Shown one piece after another: positions 171 to 9,279 of a DNA stretch of 9,279 bases; the stretch's first letter is position 1, and every line of letters begins with the position of its first letter. This stretch comes from Candidatus Poribacteria bacterium (GTDB lineage Bacteria > Poribacteria > DTPJ01 > WJIO01): NCBI GenBank assembly GCA_014730235.1, contig WJIO01000269.1, forward strand, positions 1 through 9,279. The letters run 5' to 3'. Under the pieces are notes generated by a model, which saw nothing but the letters and a program-made list of their open reading frames with translations, made no database searches and was not told the origin of the DNA. Position numbers and translations under genes: made by a program.

Positions 171-3100
171 GTGTGCAAAAAATTCAATAGATCAGAGCAT
201 TTTATTGTCAATAGAATACTTACTAATTGCCATGTAATATTTATGATTTTCATAATGGCACTACTTGCTATAATGTCTGCGTCTGCCGTTCAGCAAAAAA
301 AGAACCCGGACGAGATCCGGGCAATAATATCGGAAGCCAGAGGGGAACTAAAACATGGAAATACGTTCTATCAACTGGCACGAGTTCGCGATGGTAGACT
401 TAAGGATTTCGAGAACGCTCGGATATACTTTAAAAAAGCGCAGGAACTAGCGAATAAAGCTTTGAAGGAAACGACAGATCAGGCATTGTTATCAGAAATA
501 GAAAAGATTAATGAAATTTCACAGAAAGGAATAGACGATACAGAATTCCGCATTGATAATAATTTTGATACCATGCGTAATGTGTTTCTTCTATATGAAA
601 CCTTGAGTGGCAAACCCAAAAGCCTTTTCGAATACATAGATGATCCTTCAATAATAGCAATCACGAATGGTATGGAGCAAGTTATAGCATCAATTGATAG
701 ACAACCCAGAAAAGACTATCAAGAATATATTATATGCCTTAGTATGCCTAAGAACGAGGCTCTGGAAGATGAAGCCCGGTTTTATTTTGGTCGCTCCCAA
801 TACTTTTTCCCTTTATCACCTGAACGCATAGCGGAGATACTGACTAAAAAAGAGGTAGCAGGCCTGTATTCTTCTCCACTCCCAAGAGGTATACTTGCCA
901 AAATAGCCAAATTTTACAAACAGAAAACCTTGGGAGTAGTGAAGATCGAACAGAAAGACATGATTGATGATCTAGTATACTATGGAATCACATATTATAG
1001 CTGGTCCTTACTAACCGGAGATTACGAGAGAAGTTGTTATGCAGATGGGTTTGCCTATGACAGAACTCGTAAGTTTCTATACCTATTAGCATTTCTAACA
1101 GCAACATTTATACTGGCTATAATTTATCCTACCCTTTGGACTAAGATTAGCAGAGATTCTATACCATTAAATTTTATACATAGATTTTTTCTGTTTATTT
1201 TTGGCTTTTTGCTTTTTGGGGGTGGAATATGGATTAGTCGAAGCTTTGCGCCAGATCCGACTGAAATGGCATTAAAAGGATTTTATTGGTTTATTCCGGC
1301 ATCCACATTCGGTCTTTTATCACCAGCTGTAGTCCTGACTCTTCTGGGTAAGCGTTTTTTTTCAATTAAAGATGATTTACATCGGGGTATTACCCATTCT
1401 TTGATGATATGCTGTTTAGGAGCTTGCGCATATCTGGGCTTATGTTTCATCCAAACGTTTTCATTAGTATCAGACATTTCCTACGTTCTGGGCTTTTGTG
1501 TTCTTGCCATAATCTTAATATCAATACTCACCAAAGTCCTTCGACCTTTTTTAAGCCTTATTCCAACTCAATATAGAAAAAGGGATATTATTGCTTTACT
1601 TTATGTGTTATTCGCTTCGGCTGTTGTTTTATTGGTTATCGCCACATGCAATTGGTATATAATAAGCCCTGTGATAATTGTGTCGGTGATTGTATTAATT
1701 GTTTATTATAGAAAAACTTCATTGGATATTCCTAAAGAGATAAATGAACGGGATGAAGAAACCAAATCTGTTTCTTCTATTACTGATGTATCATTTTCAA
1801 TTGAAGAGCTTAAAGCAAAGCTCAATAAACCAGAATATATTGAACATGAGCAGATTCATATAGAGGAATATACCAGAAAAATGGAAGCAATTTTTCATGG
1901 GAAGATTTACAATCTTCTTATCACCGGAGAAGCCGGTGTGGGAAAAACCAGACTAGCTGAGGAAATTATAAAATCTCTGAAACTAAAACATAAAAATCTG
2001 AAGATCCTGGAAGCCAAGTGTAAACAACCAGAAGGTAATGAGCAAAATATACCATACGAACCATTCAGTAAAGTCTTTGAAATTATTGGCTTTAATAATC
2101 TTAGTGCCATTAAGCAGCAGGTATTAAGAGAACGTAATACGATTGAAAGTATAAGCAATGGGGTTCTGAATTTAGTTCCTAAACTAGGAGATTTAATTCC
2201 TAGTTCACTATTGTCCCATTCAAATGCAAATTCAAGTAACATATTTCTCAAAACCATGATTACTATCCTGAAAAATTATTCTAAAGAGATACCTATCATT
2301 CTGTTCTTTGATGATGTCCAATGGATAGACGAAGCGTCGCGTAAATTCCTGGAATTCATGATGGTAGATATAGCTTCTGAGGCCTTACAGATCGGCATTA
2401 TATTTACATGCCGTTCAGAACCATCTAGCGAATCCGACTACTTCAAGCAAACCTTAGCTGTTGAACCAGTTAAGCTAAAACCCATGAAAACTGAGAAACT
2501 TATTGAACTCCTGTGCAATGTTGGCTTTGTTACAAATAACACCCGGAAAATTGCAGATTGGTTAATAAGGAATACCGGAGGTAATATTCTATTCGTATTG
2601 GAGGCACTGCGTGGATTGTCTGTAGACGACCTGGAATTCACCAGACAAGGTGTCAACTTAGCAAAGGGACTTAGTGAACCTGCACTGGTAGTTTCCCATG
2701 AGTTAAAAGAGCAGATAAGAGAACGCATTATGCAGATTCCGGAGCAATTCCAGATGGTATTAGAATGCGCTGCACACATTGGCATGAGTTTTGACGCAGA
2801 TGAGCTGGTGAGAATTCTGGATATAGATCGATTAGAACTTCTAAATAAATTACGTCAGATTGAAGATGAATATGGAATTTTAAGAGATGTTAGAGAAACT
2901 GATGATGCTTACGAATTTGAGTCGGATATTATATTGCAGGTGTTGCTGGAACGTGTAGAGCAACCTGGAAGGGAAGGACAGATTTCCCAGGTTTCCAAAG
3001 AGTATAATCGCCGAATCGCTGAATCTATTGAAGAGAGATACCAAATCAATGAGATAGAAGATGACATATTTAACCAACTAGGAAACAGATTATTTGATTT

Positions 3101-4346
3101 GGCCAACCATTCTTATAAAAGCGGTAAGAAAATGAAATCCAAAACCTTTAGATATTGTAAGATTGCTGCAGAAGCCGCATTGGGACAATTTGCTTATAAT
3201 GAAGCCTCAAAGTATGCTGATATGGCTATCAATTCTTTTGATTGGAAAGACTCTGAGGAATTAGGAGTCCAGTTGCTGGAACTGGAATACCTGAAATGCA
3301 AAGTATTAATAGATTCTGGGAAAGTACCTACCTATATAAAATCGAAGAGAAATGCTTATGATCTTGCGATTGTGGAATTAGAAAGAGTTCTTGGTGATTT
3401 TGATAAAATGCGGGATATTATGAATGATAACAATAAATTAAAACCTATAAAATACAGACTTATGAATTTACAGACTACTGCCTATTATAGAAAGGGGTGG
3501 TACGATCAATCTCTGAGAATGGCAGAAAGCGTTTTGGCCAAATTGGGGGATAATGCGAATGGATTTTTATTGGAATATCTAGAGGCAAGTTTCGATAAAG
3601 CAATGTCATTAGGTAGGATAGATTCGGATGAGGACAGGGCCGAATCCATAAAATTAATGAAAAACTTAGTAGACTTAATAGATAAAAAGATTGATGAAGT
3701 TAATAAAGAACAAAAGATATATCTGATATCAATGAAATCCCGGATTATTAACACAACAGCTGAATGCATGAGTTACTCGAAAGAGAAAGGAATGGATTAT
3801 TCATCTGAAGAAATAAAAGCAAACTATAATGAAAGTCTCAAAATTAAAGAACAGCTTAACGATCACCGAGGTCAGGCAATGACTTACGGCGGACTGGGAA
3901 GATTTTATAGAGATATTGAAGTTGATTGTAAAAAAGCAATGATTTGTTTTAAGAAGGATCTGGATATATCAGAGCAGATGGGTGATCATCGAGGCATCAT
4001 GGTTATGAGCCGTGATATGGGACAATGCGCTGAGAAATTAACCCAATTAGAAGACGCTATTGAATATTTTGAGAAATGGCTTGAGTATTCTCAAAGATTA
4101 TCATCTAAAGGAGAACAAGCTAAAGCTCTTTGTGGTATATTGAGAATCAAAGCAAGGCAAAGAGACTGGGAGAGTCTGAATACTAAAGCTATGGAGCTAT
4201 GTGAAGTCCTGTCTGATTTCAATCCAGATGAAGTGAAGGATATGATAACGGAAACAGTTAGTGATTTACGTCATAATAATGCGGATGATTTTGATTTAGA
4301 AAAGCAAGCCTGGTTTCTGGAATTGAATAAGATTGCCGATGGTTAG
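171..4346 (+). CDS. Seven-transmembrane STAND NTPase with TPR repeats, receptor-like
   Basis: I read this 1391-residue protein as a membrane signal receptor. Residues 1-39 look like a signal peptide (basic start, hydrophobic core about 21-37, A-S-A before V40). Residues 40-302 would be outside the cytoplasm and start with a TPR-like helical pair (about 50-100). Seven hydrophobic segments follow at roughly 303-322, 336-355, 371-392, 409-430, 435-456, 474-492 and 495-513; an odd number places the rest in the cytoplasm. The NTPase occupies about 560-900: Walker A GEAGVGKT at 586-593, Walker B LFFDDVQWID at 711-720, a sensor-like FTCRSE at 745-750 and GGNILFVLEAL at 803-813. This is the AAA_16/MalT-like STAND pattern. 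Residues about 990-1391 are helical repeats, clearest as TPRs at 1232-1310. STAND proteins usually act as NTP-gated switches that assemble on a signal. No effector domain is visible, so the output is unknown. It converges on the minus-strand pair. Confidence 0.85.
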   Translation: MCKKFNRSEHFIVNRILTNCHVIFMIFIMALLAIMSASAVQQKKNPDEIRAIISEARGELKHGNTFYQLARVRDGRLKDFENARIYFKKAQELANKALKETTDQALLSEIEKINEISQKGIDDTEFRIDNNFDTMRNVFLLYETLSGKPKSLFEYIDDPSIIAITNGMEQVIASIDRQPRKDYQEYIICLSMPKNEALEDEARFYFGRSQYFFPLSPERIAEILTKKEVAGLYSSPLPRGILAKIAKFYKQKTLGVVKIEQKDMIDDLVYYGITYYSWSLLTGDYERSCYADGFAYDRTRKFLYLLAFLTATFILAIIYPTLWTKISRDSIPLNFIHRFFLFIFGFLLFGGGIWISRSFAPDPTEMALKGFYWFIPASTFGLLSPAVVLTLLGKRFFSIKDDLHRGITHSLMICCLGACAYLGLCFIQTFSLVSDISYVLGFCVLAIILISILTKVLRPFLSLIPTQYRKRDIIALLYVLFASAVVLLVIATCNWYIISPVIIVSVIVLIVYYRKTSLDIPKEINERDEETKSVSSITDVSFSIEELKAKLNKPEYIEHEQIHIEEYTRKMEAIFHGKIYNLLITGEAGVGKTRLAEEIIKSLKLKHKNLKILEAKCKQPEGNEQNIPYEPFSKVFEIIGFNNLSAIKQQVLRERNTIESISNGVLNLVPKLGDLIPSSLLSHSNANSSNIFLKTMITILKNYSKEIPIILFFDDVQWIDEASRKFLEFMMVDIASEALQIGIIFTCRSEPSSESDYFKQTLAVEPVKLKPMKTEKLIELLCNVGFVTNNTRKIADWLIRNTGGNILFVLEALRGLSVDDLEFTRQGVNLAKGLSEPALVVSHELKEQIRERIMQIPEQFQMVLECAAHIGMSFDADELVRILDIDRLELLNKLRQIEDEYGILRDVRETDDAYEFESDIILQVLLERVEQPGREGQISQVSKEYNRRIAESIEERYQINEIEDDIFNQLGNRLFDLANHSYKSGKKMKSKTFRYCKIAAEAALGQFAYNEASKYADMAINSFDWKDSEELGVQLLELEYLKCKVLIDSGKVPTYIKSKRNAYDLAIVELERVLGDFDKMRDIMNDNNKLKPIKYRLMNLQTTAYYRKGWYDQSLRMAESVLAKLGDNANGFLLEYLEASFDKAMSLGRIDSDEDRAESIKLMKNLVDLIDKKIDEVNKEQKIYLISMKSRIINTTAECMSYSKEKGMDYSSEEIKANYNESLKIKEQLNDHRGQAMTYGGLGRFYRDIEVDCKKAMICFKKDLDISEQMGDHRGIMVMSRDMGQCAEKLTQLEDAIEYFEKWLEYSQRLSSKGEQAKALCGILRIKARQRDWESLNTKAMELCEVLSDFNPDEVKDMITETVSDLRHNNADDFDLEKQAWFLELNKIADG

Positions 4347-4816: not shown

Positions 4817-5668
4817 TCATTCAAAATATCCTGCAGGTTTGCAATGCATTCTACCCCATCTCCGAAGTTCCTGAAATTCGTCATATACATTAATAACCTT
4901 CAGCCATTTAAGTTCTATTTCGTGCTTAAGTATATTCAGTGTTAGTTCGTCATTCTCATGTTTAGCCATTGCCTGTTTGATTATGGAATGCAGATCAGCG
5001 CCAGAAAATTTCTCAGTCATACCCGCTATCTGATCAGCCAAGTCGTTATCTTTACTCAACCATCTCTTTAACATTCTTCGTCGTGACTCGAAACTAGGAA
5101 AGTCTATAAAGAAAGCCGCATCGAAGCATCCAGACCTGATTATGGCAAGTCCAATATCTCCAAAGCGTTGGATGTTATTGGATGTGACTACAATGAAATT
5201 TGGGTAAAGATTATCGGAAAACCATGATAACAAAAGTTCGGAGAGTCGCACAATTGTTCTTCTTTCCATTTTCGATGAATCCTCGAAAAAATTCCAGAAT
5301 TCATCTATGAGAACCACATTAGGAGACATGGCCTCTAAAACAGAGAGTATCTGAGAAAATCTGTTCTCTATTTCTCCATATGGAGTATTTATAAGTGATG
5401 ATATGCAGAACTCTACTGTCAGAAGCCCAGTTCTTCTGCCAATTATCCTTGCAAACATTGTTTTTCCAGTACCTGGCGGACCTATCAGAATAAATCCTTT
5501 AGCCCGTTCATTTCCTGTTATTCGTATCTTGTCCTTTCTGGCATCTAAATGTTCTAATAAAATGTCTAAACCTATGGGCTCTTCCGCGAGAGATGTATCC
5601 GGAATACTAATAGCCAATTTAAGGTTTGGTTCAATTGATTTAAATATATAATTTATATCCCTATTCAT
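4817..5668 (-). CDS. Ycf46-like AAA+ ATPase
   Basis: A 283-residue single-domain AAA+ ATPase, soluble by sequence. Walker A GPPGTGKT is at 63-70, Walker B VVLIDEFWNF at 118-127 (D122, E123), sensor 1 in VVTSNN at 160-165 (N164 or N165), the IIRSGCFD segment at 176-183 and the GADL sensor 2 region at 223-226. The run from an LSELLLSWFS helix to VTSNNIQ, RSG-FD and a DFPS strand resembles the Ycf46 group of AAA+ proteins more than FtsH or the proteasomal ATPases, and no protease domain follows. Two positions are unusual: the common DEID of Walker B is DEFW, and the common R-x-G-R-F-D has Cys at 181, so the second arginine of this motif is missing. ATP binding and hydrolysis residues are kept. 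Such proteins usually remodel a protein partner; the partner is unknown. AAGGAG (5681-5686) lies 12 bases before ATG 5668. Confidence 0.88.
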   Translation of the reverse strand: MNRDINYIFKSIEPNLKLAISIPDTSLAEEPIGLDILLEHLDARKDKIRITGNERAKGFILIGPPGTGKTMFARIIGRRTGLLTVEFCISSLINTPYGEIENRFSQILSVLEAMSPNVVLIDEFWNFFEDSSKMERRTIVRLSELLLSWFSDNLYPNFIVVTSNNIQRFGDIGLAIIRSGCFDAAFFIDFPSFESRRRMLKRWLSKDNDLADQIAGMTEKFSGADLHSIIKQAMAKHENDELTLNILKHEIELKWLKVINVYDEFQELRRWGRMHCKPAGYFE

Positions 5669-5878: not shown

Positions 5879-5887
5879 TATTGGGTG

Positions 5888-6667
5888 ATGCTGGAACAGC
5901 AAAAACTCGGTTTTGACAAAGAAGAAGAATTTATATACGCGGTACAGAAAGCAATGCAAGTTCAAAATCGCAGCCAATTGGACGATGATATACTCGAAGC
6001 TTTTTGCAAAGATTATGAAAAATACATAAAAAATGTAGCAAGAAAAAGAGGGCAAGATCATTTGAGCCAGGATATGCAGAAAGATCTGAATCAGCATATC
6101 TGGGCGCACGTCCTTAAAAAAATATGCAAATGGAAATATAAGGGCTTTAAGTTTACTACGTGGTTACATAGTGTCTCTTATAATGCAGCTACAGACTGGT
6201 GGAGGGAGCATGGGCTGATCCGAATTCCACATAGCATTTATAGTAAAGTGAAGGCATATAAGAAAGCGCTGGAAGACCTGAGTATGCAATCTATAAATCG
6301 CCCAATGGATGAAGAAATTGCTGCTAAATTGGGATGGAGTCTTGAGGATGTAAGAAAAACATCAATAATCAACCTAACCTCAACCAACATAGCTATAGGA
6401 AATGATAAAGACAATGATATACAAGATATTATCCCCGACCCAAATATACCTGAAAGTCCCTATGATAACGATATACTACAGGAATGTATTAGTCAACTTA
6501 ATGATAACGAAAGGAACGCTATCGTTCTATTTTTTAAAGAGGGATGTCCTCAAGCTGAAATTGCTTCCATGATGGGTGTTTCTCGAAGTACTATAAGTAC
6601 CTGGGTTAGCCGTGCAAAGAAAGATTTAAAGAAGTGTTTGAAAGATAAGGGAATCTTTGTGCGTTAA
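5888..6667 (+). CDS. Sigma-70-family RNA polymerase sigma factor (regions 2, 3 and 4)
   Basis: A 259-residue sigma factor that would direct RNA polymerase to a dedicated promoter set. Region 2 lies at about 37-108 and includes the aromatic, DNA-melting and -10-recognition segment (FKFTTWLHSVSYNAATDWWRE, split here over residues 87-107). Region 3 is at about 111-160, starting IRIP and including RPMDEEIAAKLGWSLEDV, which matches the region 3 helix-turn-helix of group 3 factors. After a linker, region 4 is at about 192-251, with the helix-turn-helix AEIASMMGVSRSTISTWVSR at 223-242. ECF factors lack region 3, so this is closer to group 3 (the sporulation and flagellar type) in layout. It heads the operon and is followed at once by a zinc-finger anti-sigma-like gene, the usual arrangement for sigma factors kept off by a partner. 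Self-activation is possible but no matching promoter could be defined. Confidence 0.9.
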   Translation: MLEQQKLGFDKEEEFIYAVQKAMQVQNRSQLDDDILEAFCKDYEKYIKNVARKRGQDHLSQDMQKDLNQHIWAHVLKKICKWKYKGFKFTTWLHSVSYNAATDWWREHGLIRIPHSIYSKVKAYKKALEDLSMQSINRPMDEEIAAKLGWSLEDVRKTSIINLTSTNIAIGNDKDNDIQDIIPDPNIPESPYDNDILQECISQLNDNERNAIVLFFKEGCPQAEIASMMGVSRSTISTWVSRAKKDLKKCLKDKGIFVR

Positions 6668-6691: not shown

Positions 6692-6696
6692 GGAGG
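6692..6696 (+). promoter_or_regulatory. Ribosome binding site deciding the 6705 TTG start
   Basis: GGAGG, 8 bases before TTG 6705. It overlaps the second codon of the longer frame that could start at TTG 6690, which rules that start out in practice. Confidence 0.65.
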
Positions 6697-6704
6697 TGAA
6701 TACT

Positions 6705-7415
6705 TTGTCAATTAATAACAAACCTTCACTTGATGAGATACTTGCAGCTTTAAGGGGAAAAGATAGTCTTTTATCACCTGAAAAAAAATCCCAACATTTA
6801 AGCTCAGAAGAGATATTCCAATATTTAGAAAAGCGTTATAAACTCGAGCAAGATAACCCTCTAAGACGAAAAGTTCTGAATCATGTGGTAGAATGTAATC
6901 AGTGTTACAGGATATTCAGGGACGCTCATGAGCTTATTGTAGAATTGGAAAATGATTCAGTGCCCGATACCTCTGAAGAGTCAAAGAGAAAAATCTTCGA
7001 GACTTTCTTTGGGGAAGGAACTACAAAACCTCCTGTCACTCGACCACAACAAGAAAAAGAATTAGCAGCCGCTCCATTGTCTAAAAGGCTCATATATAAA
7101 AATCAAGCGTTCCGGTGTGAAATCTACAAGCAATCTAATAAGTTATTCTTATCAATAGCAACGGATAATTCAGAGAGCATTGGACGCCAGGTTAGGGTTT
7201 GTATTATATCTGATGATTATAAGGTTGGTTTAATTAAGTGGCGCAAAAATGGTCCTGAAGAGATTATATCTGAAGAATCCATTGATGAAAGCGGTAGTGT
7301 GGAAATAGAAATTGCAGAGACCGATCTGGATCCGCAGGAACCAAGTCATTTTAGAATTCTTGAGGATGTTTTTAAAGAAATTAAACTGAATATATACTGC
7401 AAAGAAAGAGATTAA
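6705..7415 (+). CDS. Soluble zinc-finger anti-sigma-like protein with a shared C-terminal domain
   Basis: A 236-residue protein starting at TTG 6705. Residues 31-80 match the zf-HC2/ZAS anti-sigma fold: HLSSEEIFQYLEKR, then a helix leading to H60-x3-C64-x2-C67 and a closing helix. Such domains bind the cognate sigma factor and often respond to redox or zinc state. No membrane segment is present, so this would be a cytoplasmic partner, unlike the common membrane-spanning anti-sigma factors. A polar linker (about 85-125) joins it to a C-terminal domain at 127-236 with a WRKNGPEEIIS core at 179-189 and an ESIDE at 191-195; the same domain ends the MazF-like protein at 7801-8781. It lies 37 bases after the sigma gene. 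I infer that it binds this sigma factor and that its C-terminal domain receives a signal or docks on another component. It could be an adaptor with no inhibitory role. Confidence 0.75.
   Translation: MSINNKPSLDEILAALRGKDSLLSPEKKSQHLSSEEIFQYLEKRYKLEQDNPLRRKVLNHVVECNQCYRIFRDAHELIVELENDSVPDTSEESKRKIFETFFGEGTTKPPVTRPQQEKELAAAPLSKRLIYKNQAFRCEIYKQSNKLFLSIATDNSESIGRQVRVCIISDDYKVGLIKWRKNGPEEIISEESIDESGSVEIEIAETDLDPQEPSHFRILEDVFKEIKLNIYCKERD
7083..7412 (+). repeat. Copy 1 of a duplicated domain-coding segment
   Basis: Codes for residues 127-236 of the anti-sigma-like protein. It aligns over its whole length with 8449-8778: KR-x-IY-x-N-x-A near the start, EIYK, LFL, then W-x2-NGPEEIIS-x4-IDE and a closing F-K-x-I-x-L-x-I helix or strand. 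The bases around NGPEEIIS are also largely the same (AATGGTCC then GAAGAGAT). Confidence 0.8.
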
Positions 7416-7416
7416 T

Positions 7417-7421
7417 AGGAG
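7417..7421 (+). promoter_or_regulatory. Ribosome binding site of the first MazF-like gene
   Basis: AGGAG one base after the upstream TAA and 11 bases before ATG 7433, indicating translation as part of the same transcript. Confidence 0.5.
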
Positions 7422-7432
7422 ATTCAGCGGAT

Positions 7433-7783
7433 ATGGGTGGAAAATACGATCTTGGTAATTTTTGGTGGGTCCCTCATAATAAAACTAATTATGTATGTCA
7501 GGCAAGAAAACCCTATGATCGTCCTGCAATTACTGTCCGCAAGAACGGGCCAAAAAGCTCTATGATCGTCATAGGAAGCAGCATAAAGAAACGGCAATGC
7601 ATCAAAGTTACAAGAGATGATTTTCCTTTAATCCGTAAGAGCACATATATCAATATGCGTAGCCTGCAACCAGTATTAAAAAGTTATCTCAGAAACTATA
7701 AGGGATTATTGCCCAAGCGTCTAAGAGATGAACTACGACAAAGAATATTAAGAGACTACGGCATAAACCTATATGGCAATTAA
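7433..7783 (+). CDS. MazF/PemK-like protein
   Basis: A 116-residue basic protein, the length of a typical MazF or PemK toxin. The likeness is a pattern, not a strong match: an early aromatic strand (GNFWWVPH, 8-15), DRPAITV (29-35) where toxins have the RP-x-VV/IVLS strand, MIVIGSSI (44-51) where they have the V-x-P-x-TS strand, and STYINMRSLQPVLKSYL (70-86) followed by GLL-x6-DEL-x3-I where PemK has SYINL-x-Q-x-RTV-x-K and a closing helix. R30 sits at the position of the catalytic Arg; Ser49 or Ser50 takes the place of the usual Thr. MazF-family toxins cut RNA; other members of this fold only bind. No antitoxin gene is adjacent; the gene is 17 bases after the anti-sigma-like gene and 17 before the next start. 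An alternative is a non-toxic SH3-barrel nucleic-acid-binding protein. Confidence 0.5.
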   Translation: MGGKYDLGNFWWVPHNKTNYVCQARKPYDRPAITVRKNGPKSSMIVIGSSIKKRQCIKVTRDDFPLIRKSTYINMRSLQPVLKSYLRNYKGLLPKRLRDELRQRILRDYGINLYGN

Positions 7784-7787
7784 TAAT

Positions 7788-7793
7788 GGGGAG
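7788..7793 (+). promoter_or_regulatory. Ribosome binding site deciding the 7801 GTG start
   Basis: GGGGAG, 7 bases before GTG 7801. The ATG at 7786 overlaps this site and has no site of its own, since it lies 2 bases after the previous stop. Confidence 0.6.
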
Positions 7794-7800
7794 TGGAACT

Positions 7801-8781
7801 GTGAATGGAAAAAACGAAAACATAGTTGTGGAAATTGGTGAAATATGGGCAACCAAGAGCTCTCCACTTTCACCAAACGGGGGCCAACTGCCAGAAGTGC
7901 AAAATCCCGTTCATGTAGTCATTCTCCTTGATGATAAAGACGCGTATAACAAAAGTTACCCTGACGTTCGTATTGCGCCTATCTCTAATAAAGTGGACCA
8001 AGCTAGCGATATGGATTTAATGTTGTCTGCTGAAGAAAATCCATTGGAAAAAGATATAATAATAGAGATATGGAACAGTCAACCTATGCTCAAGGCGAAT
8101 CTCTCCCAATTATATGGAAAGTTATCAGATAAACTTATAAATCAATTGGGTAGACTACAGTTGAAACTTCTGGAAACAGAAATTGATATATCCGATATAA
8201 AAACAGGAGCACCTGTTGTAGATGAGAGTGACCCAAGACTGGATTTTCAGGAACGGGAAATAGAAAAAACTTTATATCTTAGAGGTCCCTTTAATGAATT
8301 AGTTGAAAAATTGGAACTGGATAGCCAGCCATTATTAACCTTAGAACAGATTCAGGAGATGCATAAAAGGTTAGTCGCCATCGGCGACTGTATATATACC
8401 GCTTTCACTCTCCCAACCCCAGCAGGAATGCTTTCAAAAACAGATAAGAAGCGTCAGATATATGAAAATGAAGCCGTCAAAGCTGAAATATACAAAGAGG
8501 GAAATTCTCTGTTTCTTGAATTAGTGGCCAAGGCAGAAGAGCTTACTGGTAAATTTGTATCAGTAACTGTATCATCTGCAATAGAAACGGAAGACTTGGA
8601 GAAGTTTATTGAATGGGAACAGAATGGTCCGGAAGAGATAATCTCTCATAAACCTATAGATGAGGGTAGGTGGTTAGTCATAAAGCTTGGAAAAACAGAA
8701 CTAAGATTTGATAATCCCCATGATCGCAATGTAATTGATCAGATATTCAAGGATATAAGGTTAGAGATATTTGACGATTGA
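7801..8781 (+). CDS. MazF/PemK-like fold fused to the shared C-terminal domain
   Basis: A 326-residue protein in three parts. Residues 10-125 follow a MazF/PemK-like strand order: EIGEIWA (11-17), NPVHVVILLDD (35-45), DVRIAPIS (55-62), ENPLEKDIIIEIWN (79-92) and a closing KLSDKLINQLGRLQL (107-121). The catalytic Arg position is Asn35 and the Thr position is Ser62, so RNA cleavage looks unlikely; a binding role is more plausible. Residues about 126-215 are helical linker of no known family. Residues 217-326 are the domain shared with the anti-sigma-like protein, including W272-x2-NGPEEIIS (275-282) and IDE (286-288). It is soluble. Its place beside a smaller MazF-like protein that keeps the Arg suggests a regulator or paired subunit of that protein, linked by the shared domain to the sigma and anti-sigma pair. 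This role is inferred; the N-terminal family call is moderate. Confidence 0.6.
   Translation: MNGKNENIVVEIGEIWATKSSPLSPNGGQLPEVQNPVHVVILLDDKDAYNKSYPDVRIAPISNKVDQASDMDLMLSAEENPLEKDIIIEIWNSQPMLKANLSQLYGKLSDKLINQLGRLQLKLLETEIDISDIKTGAPVVDESDPRLDFQEREIEKTLYLRGPFNELVEKLELDSQPLLTLEQIQEMHKRLVAIGDCIYTAFTLPTPAGMLSKTDKKRQIYENEAVKAEIYKEGNSLFLELVAKAEELTGKFVSVTVSSAIETEDLEKFIEWEQNGPEEIISHKPIDEGRWLVIKLGKTELRFDNPHDRNVIDQIFKDIRLEIFDD
8449..8778 (+). repeat. Copy 2 of the duplicated domain-coding segment
   Basis: Codes for residues 217-326 of the larger MazF-like protein; pairs with 7083-7412. The two copies are nearly equal in length and both end at, or within a few residues of, the protein's C-terminus, which suggests duplication of a C-terminal module within this operon. 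Confidence 0.8.
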
Positions 8782-8791
8782 AATTCCATGT

Positions 8792-8796
8792 GAGGG
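8792..8796 (+). promoter_or_regulatory. Ribosome binding site of the last, partial gene
   Basis: GAGGG lies 8 bases before ATG 8805 but only 2 before the in-frame ATG 8799, so 8805 is the likelier start. Confidence 0.5.
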
Positions 8797-8804
8797 AAAT
8801 GGAA

Positions 8805-9279
8805 ATGAACGCTGAATTAAAAGTCTTGAGAACCCTTTGGAATAATGGAGATTATAAAGAATTAAAAAGTCTTTATTCACCCGGTCTGGATTCATACAGG
8901 TTTGATATAGAGGAATTAATCTTACTTGAGTTCTGCAGCTACGAATATGAAAAACGTATAACCAAAGCTAAATCATTGGAAGAAAAGAAGAGAGTTCACT
9001 GGCAAGAGGAACAGTTCAGGTCCAAACTTAGAATTAAGAGACAACAAGAACTAAGTCGGCTTATAGAAGGCATAAAATTAGGCAGAAGGAACCTGCAAGA
9101 CATATCATTTGGCTTCAGCGATCCAATTTACCTATTTAAAGCCCTTCTCAGACTAAGTAAACGCTATTATTATACACTTTCTCTTCCAAAATCCCACGTT
9201 AATCCCCAACTTATGGATAAAATATACCATGCTATTGAAGAAGTGTTGAAACTTCCCAGCAAAGAAAAACGGAAACAAG
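8805..9279 (+). CDS. Unrecognised charged helical protein, N-terminal part (runs off the window)
   Basis: An open frame of 158 codons with no stop before the window end; the protein continues. It starts MNAELKVLRTLWNNGDYKEL, a helical hairpin resembling the first repeat of TPR-like proteins. A highly charged stretch follows (about residues 48-95, rich in K, R, E and Q, for example KSLEEKKRVHWQEEQFRSK), which could be a coiled coil. After it come a DISFGFSDP turn and a segment with aromatic and basic residues (LSKRYYYTLSLPKS), then another amphipathic helix (MDKIYHAIEEVLKLP). No catalytic motif or membrane segment is visible and I recognise no family. It starts 23 bases after the larger MazF-like gene with a good ribosome binding site, so it belongs to the operon by position. 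Its function is unknown. Confidence 0.75.
   Translation, partial: MNAELKVLRTLWNNGDYKELKSLYSPGLDSYRFDIEELILLEFCSYEYEKRITKAKSLEEKKRVHWQEEQFRSKLRIKRQQELSRLIEGIKLGRRNLQDISFGFSDPIYLFKALLRLSKRYYYTLSLPKSHVNPQLMDKIYHAIEEVLKLPSKEKRKQ

Follow-up and report, generated by a model that had tools for sequence, protein, structure and literature searches.

A C-terminal domain shared by a soluble zinc anti-sigma-type protein and a putatively MazF-like protein of one operon, with relatives behind sigma-like genes in Chloroflexota

To our knowledge, the reception of signals by soluble zinc anti-sigma factors is understood in very few cases. ChrR can inhibit its sigma factor without the C-terminal domain but needs that domain for release (PMC6852236), and in Csx30, a soluble sigma-factor inhibitor of type III-E CRISPR, the C-terminal domain is the part that is recognised by a protease (PMC10028731). 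CalpT is an anti-sigma factor (PMC11417357, PMC12751052) of which CalpT10 constitutes the C-terminal fragment (PMC11417357), and its 23 kDa fragment has been described as MazF-like (PMC9704534). Here we compare these systems with a bacterial locus in which a single C-terminal domain occurs both on a zinc anti-sigma-type protein and on a second protein that may be MazF-like.

The operon and the domain carried by two of its proteins

The window, by which we mean the whole stretch of DNA analysed, is one whole contig of 9279 bases belonging to a 5.5 Mb genome in 451 contigs that is ~92% complete. From 5885 onwards it holds a plus-strand operon composed of genes for a sigma-70 factor, a zinc protein, a 116-aa protein and a 331-aa protein, followed by a cut gene; the gaps range from 2 to ~37 bases, and the last two genes (those of the 331-aa protein and the cut gene) overlap. 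Its features, with the basis of each assignment, are:

5885..6667, plus strand: sigma-70 family factor of 260 aa with regions 2, 3 and 4; first gene of the operon (Pfam, NCBIfam)
6705..7415, plus strand: soluble zinc anti-sigma-like protein, with an H-x3-C-x2-C helical N-terminus and the shared domain at its C-terminus (signature read in the translation; start placed by the ribosome-binding site; Chloroflexota-only profile, 1.6e-10)
7068..7406, plus strand: shared domain, copy 1 (BLASTP, MAFFT, profiles, shuffles)
7433..7783, plus strand: 116-aa protein between both carriers, possibly MazF-like, with the Arg of the RP motif kept (collinear PemK profile match)
7786..8781, plus strand: 331-aa protein with a putative MazF-like N-terminal part (~residues 12–121) and the shared domain at its C-terminus (PemK profile, 12.8 bits; Chloroflexota-only profile, 1.4e-14)
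8443..8775, plus strand: shared domain, copy 2, modelled as a beta-sandwich plus C-terminal helix (BLASTP, MAFFT, profile, model)
8778..9278, plus strand: final gene of the operon, truncated by the contig end (no family match in Pfam, NCBIfam or PADLOC)

The product of the first gene is matched in Pfam by Sigma70_r4_2 (E=1.3e-15), Sigma70_r3 (E=1.6e-8) and Sigma70_r2 (E=2.5e-7), and in NCBIfam by TIGR02937 (E=3.9e-25); within the window's phylum, a FliA-like factor amid flagellar genes was the only relative of this sigma factor to be found. Directly downstream of the sigma gene lies the zinc protein gene, the translation of which contains HVVECNQC, an occurrence of the H-x3-C-x2-C signature used for zinc class-I anti-sigma factors (ZAS/ASDI; PMC7406223). 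The curated anti-sigma profiles of Pfam and NCBIfam, which cover domains that are short and divergent, gave no match to this protein. The longest frame of the gene begins at TTG 6690; its start is probably TTG 6705, because GGAGGTGA at 6692–6699 precedes that codon, and the residue numbers of the protein, as counted along the longest frame, would then fall by 5. Outside the operon, an AAA ATPase gene (4817–5668, minus strand) is divergent from it and encodes a protein of general CDC48/proteasome-ATPase-like character with weak matches to IetA-type anti-phage ATPases. Positions 171–4346 (plus strand) encode a 1391-aa membrane protein combining an AAA_16/STAND-like ATPase (AAA_16 E=5e-17) with TPRs, of which the genome contains no second copy.

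Homology of the two C-termini was evident from several comparisons. Residues ~127–238 of the zinc protein (longest frame) correspond to residues ~219–330 of the 331-aa protein: BLASTP of the whole proteins gave E=4e-21 with 33% identity over 162 residues, and MAFFT over the domain gave 38% identity between the copies, with KR-x-IY-x-N-x-A, EIYK, LFL, W-x2-NGPEEIIS and IDE identical in both. The local alignment score of the copies was 196, and the best of 2000 shuffles scored 61. The BLAST match extends upstream into a helical linker, an extension that is marginal when taken alone, as 19 of 2000 shuffles reached its score. The two regions represent a single homologous domain of ~105–110 residues, and no third copy was found elsewhere in this genome. 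The original prediction, made from the letters of the window, had aligned the two C-termini end to end through the same motifs and had placed one common domain on two proteins of one operon, and both claims hold; its coordinates are also right, with copy 1 at 7068–7406 and copy 2 at 8443–8775, and only its residue numbers for the anti-sigma-like protein, which are probably 5 too high, need amending.

A domain family behind sigma-like genes in Chloroflexota

Neither carrier protein matched Pfam, NCBIfam or PADLOC beyond chance, and no relative of the domain was found among PDB sequences; sequence matches there to ADP-sugar pyrophosphatase, Spx and a cytochrome were dismissed as short or compositional. 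A profile built from the two copies, a search that had been proposed together with the original prediction, recovered the domain in 25 of 400 Chloroflexota genomes (E down to 2.4e-9), and a richer profile returned the same 25 genomes (E down to 1.6e-45), with one carrier protein in each positive genome and no further architecture. Searches of 83 further genomes from the window's phylum did not detect the domain, and the richer profile gave no match in 396 Acidobacteriota. In the reverse direction, a profile made from Chloroflexota sequences only matched the 331-aa protein at 1.4e-14 and the zinc protein at 1.6e-10 (best shuffle E=2.7), and profile–profile comparison between window and Chloroflexota gave 97.5% with E=6e-12. 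Seven positions (L, L, G, W, P, T and L) are invariant across 22 sequences, and within the NGPEEIIS block Ile and Ser are almost invariant; the average identity of the window copies to those of Chloroflexota is 25% and 19%, compared with 38% between the window copies themselves.

Searches of other collections were uniformly negative. Scanning genome contigs with peptide patterns of the two copies gave no confirmed member, and 22 matches to W-x2-NGPEEI were judged unrelated by sequence. There was no match in viral contigs (queried with alignment A1, both carriers, the 116-aa protein, the last gene and the Chloroflexota alignment), in plasmids (queried with the 331-aa protein, the sigma factor, the 116-aa protein and one Chloroflexota homologue) or in phages (queried with the 331-aa protein). 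The last gene matched one Sinorhizobium plasmid, but within a large repetitive frame, and we took this match as spurious.

The genomic setting was examined for 21 Chloroflexota proteins at 20 loci (L079–L098). In every one of the 21, the domain forms the C-terminus of a ~350-aa protein carrying H-x3-C-x2-C, and a same-strand gene lies directly upstream (21/21). The product of this upstream gene shows a weak Sigma70_r2 match in 16 of 20 cases (best E=0.002) and is aligned by ECF sigma models over residues 76–219, in both instances below the curated cut-offs; from its sequence it looks like a divergent sigma factor, and no family of its own was found for it. Since a helix-turn-helix/TPR regulator is nearby in all 20 loci, and aroC and moaC (identified by reading the sequences) are near most of them, the setting suggests a chromosomal regulatory locus and not a mobile defence island. 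No NTPase or effector was seen beside the Chloroflexota homologues, and the carrier genomes are mostly 5–14 Mb in size. The HTH-TPR regulator, the sigma-like gene and the zinc/shared-domain protein recur as a triad at the 20 loci (e.g. L080:6333–10136). On one short Chloroflexota contig (L092:431–8442) the locus occurs twice as an inverted repeat with identical proteins, which is probably an assembly artefact.

The domain has a constant place on H-x3-C-x2-C proteins behind sigma-like genes, and the link to sigma factors first proposed for the window reappears independently in Chloroflexota. This previously undescribed module forms the C-terminus of soluble zinc anti-sigma-type proteins in two phyla; the earlier suggestion of an undescribed family agrees with the lack of Pfam, NCBIfam, PADLOC and PDB-sequence matches, and the profile search led to a family outside known domains and tied to sigma-like genes. 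As a conserved and uncatalogued C-terminal domain, the module provides a handle for finding the signals of zinc anti-sigma factors.

The modelled domain and the MazF-like part

Structure comparison was based on copy 2 alone. With copy 1 as the sole aligned sequence, one model of copy 2 reached pLDDT 78.4 and pTM 0.71, the other 4 of 5 models being poor; the 331-aa protein folded alone gave pLDDT 34. The model of copy 2 comprises a beta-sandwich, a C-terminal helix and a last strand, and is predicted to be an Ig-like sandwich. Foldseek returned no PDB or viral match for it at E<=0.001, the best matches being designed Ig-like proteins. The leading rows from VIA-align (Z 6.6–6.0) contained clathrin-adaptor ears and 8b0u chain C, which is the CalpT10 fragment complexed with CalpL (Z 6.3, rmsd 2.8, 73/76 residues); the latter is tied with unrelated folds, and Z values below 8 can reflect a common arrangement. 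No sequence support for the CalpT10 match was found, and we regard this model-based resemblance as a lead and not as proof, albeit a striking one because CalpT is an anti-sigma factor with a MazF-like fragment and the order of its parts is that of the 331-aa protein.

In MazF, the Arg of the RP motif is catalytic. The PemK profile that we derived from relatives within the window's phylum is collinear with residues 12–121 of the 331-aa protein at 12.8 bits and with the 116-aa protein at 5.8 bits. Among 3000 shuffles and 331 natural proteins, none reached the score of the 331-aa protein; that of the 116-aa protein was reached by 3 shuffles and by no natural protein. PF02452 matched neither protein, by hmmscan or in a six-frame search of the genome, and no recognisable antitoxin gene was found. 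At the RP motif of MazF, the 331-aa protein reads Asn40–Pro41 and the 116-aa protein reads RPAITV, in which the Arg (Arg30) is retained. Because the 331-aa protein is without the catalytic Arg and falls below every curated threshold, its interpretation as an effector toxin is doubtful, and the profile similarity lends weak support to an N-terminus that is MazF-like in fold and is not a MazF toxin. Of its former description as MazF-like and effector-like, the first half survives as a non-random similarity, and the second is unsafe. The MazF-like part would bind rather than cut, and the 116-aa protein may be the active partner of the 331-aa protein.

A possible sigma-factor switch, its alternatives and known systems

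By analogy with the C-terminal domains of ChrR and Csx30, the shared domain probably serves a family of sigma-factor switches as the part that receives the signal or docks. In the mechanism that we tentatively propose, the zinc helical part of the first protein would keep the sigma factor inactive, and the C-terminal domain would not hold sigma but would take the release signal by docking to an activator, which would be a protease or an ATPase. The same activator would reach the zinc protein and the MazF-like protein because the latter carries the same docking domain, and the second protein would act, or be removed, together with the release of sigma. We give slightly less than an even chance to this proposal as a whole, namely that one activator docks on the shared domain of both proteins and that release of sigma is coupled to the second protein. 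The prediction that follows from the shared domain is that both carrier proteins answer to one partner; the second carrier, the 331-aa protein, has been seen in one genome only. The AAA ATPase gene at 4817–5668 (minus strand) is a candidate activator by position only. No protease was recognised in the window, and SAVED (PF18145) gave no match in the genome at E<=1, an absence that is uncertain with the genome 92% complete and with no control genome passing the cut-off. A more specific version of the proposal, which we consider unlikely, is a CRISPR-independent switch of the CalpT/CalpS type, in which a docking domain on a zinc anti-sigma protein and on a CalpT-like MazF-fold protein would allow one activator to free sigma and switch the second protein, with Chloroflexota having a simpler one-protein form. 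The presence of the domain on a MazF-like protein in the same operon suggests a route by which a CalpT-type regulator could be assembled outside CRISPR.

Alternatively, the domain could be a small-molecule or stress sensor, whereby a ligand would make the anti-sigma-type protein drop sigma and the MazF-like protein would sense the same ligand independently. ChrR has exactly the same layout, in which a soluble zinc anti-sigma protein ends in a separate beta domain (PMC6852236), and the conserved W-x-x-x-x-P / NGPEEIIS loop could form the wall of a ligand site. However, the residues that are invariant across the 22 sequences (Leu, Gly, Trp, Pro and Thr) do not make up a metal-ligand set such as the ChrR cupin has, and the loop differs between the phyla (WxxNGPEEIIS versus WxGGNPxAIRS); a sensor is possible on these grounds but doubtful. 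Dimerisation is a further explanation, in which copies 1 and 2 would pair such that the MazF-like protein is held with, or competes with, the sigma/anti-sigma complex, without an outside activator. The greater likeness of the window copies to each other (38%) than to those of Chloroflexota (25% and 19%) is as expected from co-evolution after duplication, but hetero-pairing cannot be the original function because each Chloroflexota genome has one such protein, and we judge a dimerisation module to be distinctly unlikely. Very improbable is the reading that follows the likeness originally drawn to NTPase-linked conflict systems, in which an adaptor-type domain would join a toxin effector to a regulator and the STAND-like ATPase would act as sensor. 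Such an ATPase, with TPRs, does lie upstream (AAA_16 E=5e-17) and a MazF-like fold is weakly supported, but the ATPase gene (171–4346) is outside the operon and separated from it by two minus-strand genes, the MazF-like part carries Asn in place of the catalytic Arg and has no PF02452 match, the Chloroflexota homologues are without a neighbouring NTPase or effector, and a 2020 survey of such systems makes no mention of sigma factors (PMC7159879), although ECF sigma genes were linked to caspase systems in a 2021 survey (PMC8195603). This reading, which rests on the neighbourhood in one contig, is not supported.

Returning to the docking proposal, the locus resembles each of several known systems in part. 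With MazF/PemK toxins it has in common the weak, collinear profile similarity of the 331-aa N-terminus and the 116-aa protein, and it differs in giving no PF02452 match, in having Asn40 for the catalytic Arg (331-aa protein) and in having no recognisable antitoxin gene. Csx30, which acts with CASP-sigma in type III-E CRISPR, is soluble and inhibits an ECF-like sigma factor until a protease relieves the inhibition via the C-terminal domain of Csx30 (PMC10028731), a likeness to the window domain by analogy; in contrast, Csx30 has 565 aa, the window is without a Cas7-11 or CHAT protease gene, and the window sigma factor scores 44 bits against the type III-E sigma model, for which the cut-off is 100. 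ChrR and other soluble ZAS factors have the layout in common with the zinc protein, being soluble, encoded directly behind a sigma gene, and built from a helical H-x3-C-x2-C N-terminus and a separate C-terminal domain. Unlike that of ChrR, the window domain is an Ig-like sandwich in the model, has no conserved cupin metal site and is common to a second protein. In the CalpT/CalpS/CalpL system of type III CRISPR, as in the window operon, a sigma gene is present, and CalpT has a MazF-like part followed by a small C-terminal part, in the same order as in the 331-aa protein, with a middling structural match of the C-termini. No sequence similarity between CalpT and the window proteins was found, no counterpart of CalpL was recognised (neither a Lon-SAVED protease in the window nor a SAVED domain in the genome), and the window encodes, alongside the 331-aa protein, a separate zinc anti-sigma-type protein that also ends in this domain.
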